Origin: Spiroplasma apis B31
Lineage (GTDB): Bacteria > Bacillota_I > Bacilli_A > Mycoplasmatales > Mycoplasmataceae
Assembly (NCBI RefSeq): GCF_000500935.1
Contig: NC_022998.1
Location: 434,001 to 498,000 of the forward strand
Direction: 5' to 3'
DNA length: 64,000 nucleotides
The notes below the pieces were generated by a model. The model worked only from the letters and a program-made list of their open reading frames with translations. It was not told the origin of the DNA and did no database searches. Of this stretch, positions 29,486 through 31,199 are shown piece by piece. The translations under genes were made by a program, and so were the position numbers. How positions within the stretch are numbered: the first letter of the stretch is position 1; each line of letters begins with the position of its first letter.

Positions 29486-30046
29486 ATGGCAAATACAACA
29501 AATAAAGGACCAGAAATAAAAGCAGTTAAAAGAGCTGCCTCTAATGCAAAAAGATCACAACATATCCAAACAAGAAAAAAAGTTACTGATCCAAAACCAA
29601 ACAAAATTGTTAATAAATTAATTAAGTTAACAGAAGGTCAAGAAAAATTCATATGAGAAAAAGCAGACCCAGTATCAGCAACAAACTCAGCTATATATAG
29701 AAAAGATGTAGCGGGAGCAATTATTAAACACAATGAATACGGTTTAGAATCTGAATTCGGTTGAGTTCATGCACTAGTTGATCCAGAAGGTGAATACGAT
29801 GATGTAAACAACATTGTGGCATTGCACTGAATGAATGCTAAAATTAAGCGTAAAGCTGGTGAACCTTGAGTTGCTGCAGTTACTGGCGCTAGAGAAATGC
29901 AACAAATTTACAACTACATGAAGGAAGTAAAAGTTCCTGGTGATGCATTGGATAAAGCAAGAAAAACTGTTTTGTTCCAACCATCAATTGTTGAACCAAA
30001 AAAAATCAATATTGAAATTAGAAAAGCTCCTTTATCTAAGAAATAA
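29486..30046 (+). CDS. HNH-fold-like protein lacking the catalytic histidine
   Basis: 186 residues. The first 45 are Lys/Asn-rich and probably bind nucleic acid. Residues 69-122 (AIYRKDVAGAIIKHNEYGLE, FGWVHALVDPEGEYDDVNNI, VALHWMNAKIKRKAGE) follow a known HNH layout: R-x-D-x-x-G...Y-G...G-W-E-x-D-H-I...G-G-x-D-D-h-x-N-h-x-x-L-H-x-x-N-x-x-K. The expected D-H after the Trp is H-A-L, so the catalytic pair is lost while the N and K positions remain. A structural or binding role is more likely than nuclease activity. The ATG at 29471 is an alternative start. Confidence 0.5.
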
Positions 30047-30050
30047 TAAA

Positions 30051-30077
30051 AGATATCCCCGAGAGGGATATTTTTTA
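30051..30077 (+). terminator. Terminator after the HNH-like gene
   Basis: ATATCCC (30053-30059)-CGAGA-GGGATAT (30065-30071) and a T run; a new TATAAT begins 10 bases later. Confidence 0.85.
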
Positions 30078-30080
30078 TAT

Positions 30081-30086
30081 TATAAT
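30081..30086 (+). promoter_or_regulatory. Promoter -10 of the structured leader before miaA
   Basis: TATAAT at 30081-30086, predicting transcript start near 30092. Confidence 0.55.
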
Positions 30087-30091
30087 AATTA

Positions 30092-30210
30092 TGTCCTTTG
30101 GGACACCAAGAATATTTGTTATTCTTACGTTTGCGTGAGTGTCCAAAACCGCTCTATAAATTAGTATTTCCTATCTCATGCATTTCATAGCGGGTGGAAA
30201 TATTTTTTTT
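30092..30210 (+). ncRNA. Structured leader or small RNA with competing helices and terminator
   Basis: No coding frame. GGACAC (30101-30106) can pair either with TGTCC upstream (30092-30096, loop TTTG) or with GTGTCC downstream (30139-30144). In the second form it encloses two hairpins, AAGAAT/ATTCTT (30108-30126) and ACG/CGT (30127-30136). Further on, ACCGCT (30148-30153) pairs with AGCGGGT (30189-30195, one bulge), while TATTTCC (30165-30171) pairs with GGAAATA (30196-30202), followed by T8. The last two helices interleave, so they form a pseudoknot or exclude each other. It ends 60 bases before miaA. Confidence 0.5.
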
Positions 30211-30269
30211 GTTTTTTTAATGAGAATTAAAAATTAATAGTTGTTAAAAAAACAAAAAAGGAGGTTAAC

Positions 30270-31199
30270 TTGTCAAAAATAGTCGTTATTGTTGGTCCAA
30301 CCGCATCAGGTAAAACTGATTTGTCAGTCATACTAGCACAAAAATTTAATGGAGAATGTATCAATGCAGATTCTACCCAAATTTTTCAAGGTACAGATAT
30401 TGCAACTAATAAAATATCAGAAAGTGAAATGCAAGGCATTCCACATCATTTATTTTCAATAAAAAAAGTTAATGAAAGTTATAGCGTTGCTGATTACCAA
30501 AGAGATGGTCGAAAGATAATAAATGAGGTATTAGAACGAGGAAAACTACCGATTATTGTTGGAGGCACTGGACTTTTCATTAATGCACTTATAATGAACT
30601 ATAATTTTAATAGTAAAGAACATATTCCTGATTTTGAAAATAAATATAGTAATTTGGATAATCAAGAATTATGAAATGTATTAAAAAAAGTTGATAAAGA
30701 AGCAGCTCTTTCGATACATCCAAACAATAGATACAGAGTTTTAAGAGCGCTTGAAATTTTCGAAATAAATGGACAAGTAAAATCAACGATAATAAAAAAT
30801 AATAAACATATGTTTTATGACGAAGTAATTATTATTGGTATAGAACCAGATAGGAAACTTCTACATAAAAAAATTGAAGATAGGGTTTTAAAACTAGTCG
30901 AAAAAGGTTTATTCGAAGAAATAAAAAAAGCATGATCAGATAATAATTACAATGAGACTTCGCAAGCTTTGAAGTGTATTGGTGGACCAGAAATTCTATC
31001 TTATCTAAAAAATGAAATTAATTATGAAAGATGTATTGAATTGATGCAAAGAAATAATAGAAGATATGCAAGAAGACAATTAACATGGTTTAAAAATCAA
31101 TTTGAGGACGTAAAATGATTTAATCATGATTATCAAAACTTTCAAGTAATGACTGAAAATGTATCAAATTATATACATTTGAAGTTAAATAATTTATAA
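30270..31199 (+). CDS. miaA: tRNA dimethylallyltransferase
   Basis: 309 residues, TTG start set by AAAAGGAGGTTAAC. P-loop GPTASGKT (9-16), NADSTQIFQGTDIATNKI (family: D-S-x-Q-x-Y-x-x-h-D-I-x-T-A-K), GIPHHLFSI and LPIIVGGTGLF are all MiaA motifs; NRYRVLRALEIF and QRNNRRYARRQLTWFK follow. It adds dimethylallyl to A37 of tRNAs reading UNN codons. It lies behind the structured leader at 30092-30210 and 22 bases before an RpiR regulator. Confidence 0.95.

Follow-up and report, generated by a model that had tools for sequence, protein, structure and literature searches.

T-box leaders are Gram-positive-type attenuators linked to tRNA biology, and among the mollicutes Mycoplasma capricolum has a U6-like RNA of about 125 nt, MCS4. 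The HMP-PP (thiS motif) riboswitch, in the part of its description consulted, is a compact conserved RNA that holds a terminator stem within its conserved fold and lies upstream of one gene type (PMC6478431), and the orphan candidates yjdF and folE, in the portions of their reports consulted, are conserved structured leaders tied almost exclusively to one gene (PMC4793209, PMC6800512). The ABCABC arrangement of pseudoknot arms, the pseudotrefoil, is uncommon and is represented by 51 sequences in RNA STRAND (PMC3390330). In the literature we found no leader RNA described for miaA or from Spiroplasma.

The window, a 64,000-nt stretch of the Spiroplasma apis B31 genome (G000:C1:434001-498000; Spiroplasma group, TGA read as Trp), contains an RNA of about 120 nt that runs from about 30092 to a U-run at 30203-30219, ahead of the gene for tRNA dimethylallyltransferase. 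Comparison of related sequences identifies it as a genuine, previously uncatalogued family of conserved structured RNA directly before miaA in Spiroplasma. The features of the locus, in window positions, are as follows.

30053..30076, + strand: terminator of the upstream gene, hairpin ATATCCC-CGAGA-GGGATAT plus T-run, with its end immediately ahead of the -10 box of the RNA (sequence)
30081..30086, + strand: -10 box TATAAT, 5 nt ahead of base 1 of the RNA
30092..30105, + strand: P1 hairpin at the extreme 5' end of the RNA (97% of cells paired in alignment A4; C-G to G-C swap in g12)
30108..30126, + strand: P2 hairpin AAGAAUA/UAUUCUU (both sides changed in up to 13 sequences per pair, RNAalifold consensus)
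30132..30139, + strand: helix A 5' arm UGCGUGAG (changes in other clades matched by compensating ones in A')
30147..30153, + strand: helix B 5' arm AACCGCU (near invariant)
30154..30162, + strand: B-C linker CUAUAAAUU, with a conserved AUAAAU that is unpaired in the model (alignment)
30163..30171, + strand: helix C 5' arm AGUAUUUCC, the 5' side of the terminator stem (99% of cells paired; both sides changed in 6 of 9 pairs)
30175..30182, + strand: helix A 3' arm CUCAUGCA (basis as for its 5' arm)
30189..30195, + strand: helix B 3' arm AGCGGGU (basis as for its 5' arm)
30196..30204, + strand: helix C 3' arm GGAAAUAUU, abutting B' directly (basis as for its 5' arm)
30203..30219, + strand: U-rich run after C/C', the predicted intrinsic terminator in the window's genus (sequence; present in g1, g6, g9 and g12)
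30260..30264, + strand: miaA ribosome-binding site GGAGG (sequence)
30270..31199, + strand: miaA, tRNA dimethylallyltransferase, start TTG, code 4 (TIGR00174, E 4.2e-80; ORF)

An earlier note, made from the letters of the window alone, had described an independent structured RNA with its own TATAAT, placed after a terminator and matched to no known class. Both elements are where it put them: the neighbouring upstream gene ends at 30046, its hairpin and T-run follow at 30053-30076, and the TATAAT at 30081-30086 precedes an RNA start at about 30092. The same order of hairpin, T-run and -10 box is found at most loci of the window's genus. In nearly all homologues TATAAT or TAAAAT lies about 5 nt 5' of the first base of the RNA, the exceptions being L022 and L004, where the best match is 7-10 nt upstream; no conserved -35 element was identified. 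Such near-constant spacing of the -10 box gives the RNA a transcription start of its own, most likely at a set position at the base of P1. The region also folds more stably than its shuffles (z -2.56; 2 of 200 shuffles as good).

Behind P1, whose tetraloop is UUCG, GUAA, GCAA or GAAA among relatives, and P2, the arms of three helices follow one another in the order A-B-C-A'-B'-C', such that each helix crosses the other two, a 'pseudotrefoil'. The A-B linker measures 6-9 nt and varies by single bases across the alignment. Run alone, RNAalifold selects C along with P1 and P2 and is unable to display A and B, which cross. Two of the three helices had been seen before: the pairing ACCGCT/AGCGGGT at 30148-30153/30189-30195 is helix B, TATTTCC/GGAAATA lies inside 30163-30171/30196-30204, ahead of the U-run, and is helix C, and the two interleave as described; the third, A/A' at 30132-30139/30175-30182, had been missed. 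Of the accompanying idea of mutually exclusive helices, the crossing of B and C is borne out; A, B and C have no base in common, so any mutual exclusion would have to be steric or topological, and the alternative pairing proposed as the switch finds no support in the alignment. The note has this helix, GGACAC/GUGUCC, closing a three-way junction. Its bases can indeed pair in the window, but the helix is not conserved. Column shuffles equal it in 215 of 500 cases for cells paired and, for covariation, in 196 of 500. Of its six pairs, two are lost in 8-10 of 20 sequences, and the S. citri clade lacks the right arm.

Compensatory changes strongly support helices A and C, and a few are found in the nearly invariant B. 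The arm sequences diverge greatly among clades and yet retain pairing: helix A is formed by UGCGUGAG/CUCAUGCA in the window's genus (g1), by UGUGUAAG/CUUAUACA in G030 and, in the S. citri clade, by GUGUUUGGG/CCCAAGCAC; helix C is formed by AGUAUUUCC/GGAAAUAUU, AAUGCUUCU/GGGGGCAUU or AGUAACUCU/AGAGUUAUU. Across 33 distinct sequences, P1, A, B and C together show both-side changes in 17 of 30 pairs (78 cells), a score reached by none of 500 shuffles, slid controls giving no more than 6 pairs with 15 cells; the alignment was fitted to a model that holds C and is biased towards it there, A and B being absent from that model. Counted along the MiaA protein tree, pair-keeping changes number 15 (4 double) for helix A against at most 5 when slid, and 26 (6 double) for helix C against at most 18. 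For helix B, the pair 72-126 occurs as A-U, G-U or G-C, a C-G pair is swapped for U-A in L056, and an A.G mismatch becomes A-U or C-G in other relatives. P2 covaries as well in the RNAalifold consensus. The changes sought in related Spiroplasma are present in P1, P2, A and C and, sparsely, in B.

The covariance model R1 finds the RNA in 40 of 60 family genomes, once in each except G066, and a DNA search detects it in all 20 genomes of the window's genus (E <= 2e-34 across the genus) and in several other family genera; clade g8 takes in S. poulsonii and S. phoeniceum. In G066 the whole RNA-miaA unit is duplicated (L068 and L069; C1, 662 kb and 651 kb), with the second miaA interrupted. Every family genome that bears miaA has the RNA (39 of 39), the fortieth RNA genome having lost the gene, and in 38 of the 39 the RNA is directly upstream on the same strand, although the genes upstream of the RNA vary. 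Neither is present in 20 family genomes of six genera; these may stem from few losses, so that the co-occurrence weighs less than the tally. In the miaA-less genera the best candidate relative has an E of 0.0155, and those inspected do not preserve the helices convincingly. A further model, R2, which takes in the divergent clade, gave nothing convincing beyond the family in 320 order genomes or 395 class genomes, save one contig of G274; two weak matches outside the family were at chance level and were rejected. The RNA family is apparently confined to Spiroplasma, as judged from these searches.

None of the 4227 families of Rfam 15 matched at the gathering threshold at the site in the window or in nine divergent relatives, a search that covers T-box and HMP-PP RNAs only if they are among those families. 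A permissive search returned sub-threshold, chance-level matches that we discarded. No match to 6S RNA (RF00013) was found in the whole genome, and the genome's SRP RNA (RF00169) lies elsewhere, at G000:C1:8378-8475. Conservation, compensatory changes and promoter position strongly support the note's independent unit outside the known Rfam classes, and its failure to match SRP RNA or T-box agrees with these searches.

We favour, with a probability of roughly 0.55, the reading that the RNA is a structured 5' leader of miaA in Spiroplasma that acts by transcription attenuation. A transcript from the RNA's own promoter at about 30092 would carry P1, P2 and then the A/B/C core, and in the window's genus C/C' with the U-run would either end it as a short RNA or let it continue into miaA. 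A/A' and then B/B' would form as the RNA emerges, producing a pseudoknot around strand C that hinders C/C', and a signal that does or does not stabilise this pseudoknot would decide C/C' pairing and termination. The candidate signals are MiaA, its tRNA substrates and the isoprenoid substrate DMAPP, proposed from the identity of the gene only. What the comparison shows is that the RNA is conserved, that its helices have comparative backing, and where its promoter box and miaA lie; regulation, the way the switch goes and its signal are inferences. Before any pseudoknot gain, about 2-6 kcal/mol separate the terminator (C) state from the A state in most cases, and B can contribute a helix to the A state only by forming a pseudoknot. 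Alternatively, all three helices may coexist as a pseudotrefoil.

The layout supports attenuation in the window's genus, where the predicted terminator stands immediately before the miaA ribosome-binding site; the earlier proposal of a riboswitch or attenuator layout is supported to this extent, but not for its switch helix. Within this genus the U-run follows C/C' and the distance from the RNA's end to the miaA start is 18-97 nt. The shortest gaps, in L020 (18 nt) and L016 (24 nt), cannot fit a second promoter, so transcription of miaA there must pass through this RNA and then its terminator, as an attenuator would be laid out. The S. citri/poulsonii clade is arranged differently: the U-run after C/C' is interrupted, a separate hairpin terminator follows further on, and in part of the S. 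citri clade a promoter-like TTGAAA-16 nt-TAAAAT stands ahead of miaA, making an own miaA promoter possible there. That C/C' is nevertheless held by compensatory change in the S. citri clade points to a role in the fold beyond termination. The lack of shared bases among A, B and C, unlike usual alternative helices, counts against an attenuator leader.

The strongest competitor, which we consider possible but clearly less probable, is an independent small RNA, trans-acting or structural, with its own promoter and terminator, that stands before miaA by happenstance, with expression of the gene relying on readthrough or on a promoter of its own. It would account for the -10 box at a fixed distance and for the S. 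citri clade, where the copy resembles a complete unit, behind which come a separate terminator and a promoter-like sequence. It is also favoured by three copies in which the RNA and its promoter persist away from miaA, two of which, in G025 and G074, serve as natural tests of cis versus trans function. In G025 (L056, contig C29) the RNA is intact, with the compensatory change in B noted above, and a deletion has removed miaA together with the RpiR-like gene after it; miaA was not found in the assembly, which is 85% complete. A GAGGAG...ATG remains behind this RNA, before tRNA-Gly, as a natural scar of miaA loss. In G074 (L066, L095) an IS3-like element sits between the RNA and a miaA that is intact, and there is an A.A mismatch in helix B. 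Both broken ends around the element carry a copy of the 25-nt sequence AAATTGATGTTAGTTTTTTAATTTG. The third copy is on a 4.7-kb Spiroplasma-like contig (G274:C22, L129), where miaA does not adjoin and B and C are partly broken; since the genome is assigned to another family, this contig is probably a binning contaminant.

Against independence stands the adjacency to miaA in 38 of 39 genomes despite differing upstream genes. Helix B, moreover, is broken in two of the three detached copies (G074 and G274) and in no copy attached to miaA. This relaxation points to a cis function, the persistence of RNA and promoter to some independence, and three copies are too few to choose between them. An RNA-seq survey of two Spiroplasma species gave only tmRNA and rnpB as highly expressed non-coding RNAs (PMC5726471), which also speaks against an independent RNA, although short RNAs may have dropped out of its library. 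For the S. citri clade and the detached copies, an independent RNA is about as good a fit as the attenuation leader, so attenuation is not proven.

A sub-case of the leader reading, whose likelihood overlaps with it and which we regard as doubtful in itself, is autoregulation, in which MiaA would bind an anticodon-loop-like site at the AUAAAU linker and change termination. MiaA recognises A36-A37-A38 of its tRNA substrates, the RNA occurs with miaA and not with other genes, and AUAAAU is nearly invariant, reading ACAAGA in G025, where miaA was not found. The motif, however, reads AUAAGU in the miaA-bearing L019 and persists in the copies of G074 and G274 that are detached from the gene, and its presentation as a 7-nt loop on a 5-bp stem is unsupported. 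The unpaired AUAAAU would suit a mimic of the tRNA anticodon, though it does not point to one specifically.

Somewhat less probable still is a new class of riboswitch with an isoprenoid diphosphate as its ligand (DMAPP or IPP), or a leader that senses tRNA or MiaA, built on a pseudotrefoil core with all three helices formed at once. Membership of a riboswitch class cannot be claimed without a ligand, and an attenuator-like working is most likely. A leader-peptide attenuator whose reading frame runs across the A-B linker was discarded: no conserved frame spans this linker, and its length of 6-9 nt with single-base variation argues against a conserved peptide across it. Helices that arose by chance around an ordinary terminator in AT-rich intergenic DNA, of which the GGACAC pairing is a case, are a very improbable source of the whole fold and are refuted by the genus-wide conservation (E <= 2e-34) and by covariation far above slid controls.

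Compared with the known systems, the putative attenuation leader shares with T-box leaders the Gram-positive-type layout and the link to tRNA biology, and differs in that its GGUGG/ACCGC elements stand in reversed order; no specifier stem was identified in it. MCS4, compared by description only, is similar in length and likewise mollicute; the miaA-less genera hold no convincing relative of our RNA, and a likeness to U6 was rejected as being at chance level (431 of 1000 shuffles as good). With the yjdF and folE motifs, as the consulted portions describe them (PMC4793209, PMC6800512), the RNA has in common a near-exclusive tie to one gene, and it departs from them in its restriction to Spiroplasma and its three-way crossing topology. 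The nearest functional analogue found, as far as the consulted part of its description goes, is the terminator-embedded HMP-PP riboswitch (PMC6478431), which differs in the gene it precedes; our RNA has no Rfam match, has three interleaved helices and, in one clade, a C/C' that is not the terminator. The arm order is that of the ABCABC pseudotrefoils (PMC3390330), a topology and not a family, and is known here from comparative pairing. The papers and RNA families searched held no leader RNA for miaA, and the locus adds an uncatalogued family tied to a tRNA-modifying gene, folded into an uncommon topology of three mutually crossing helices, two of them with strong comparative support.
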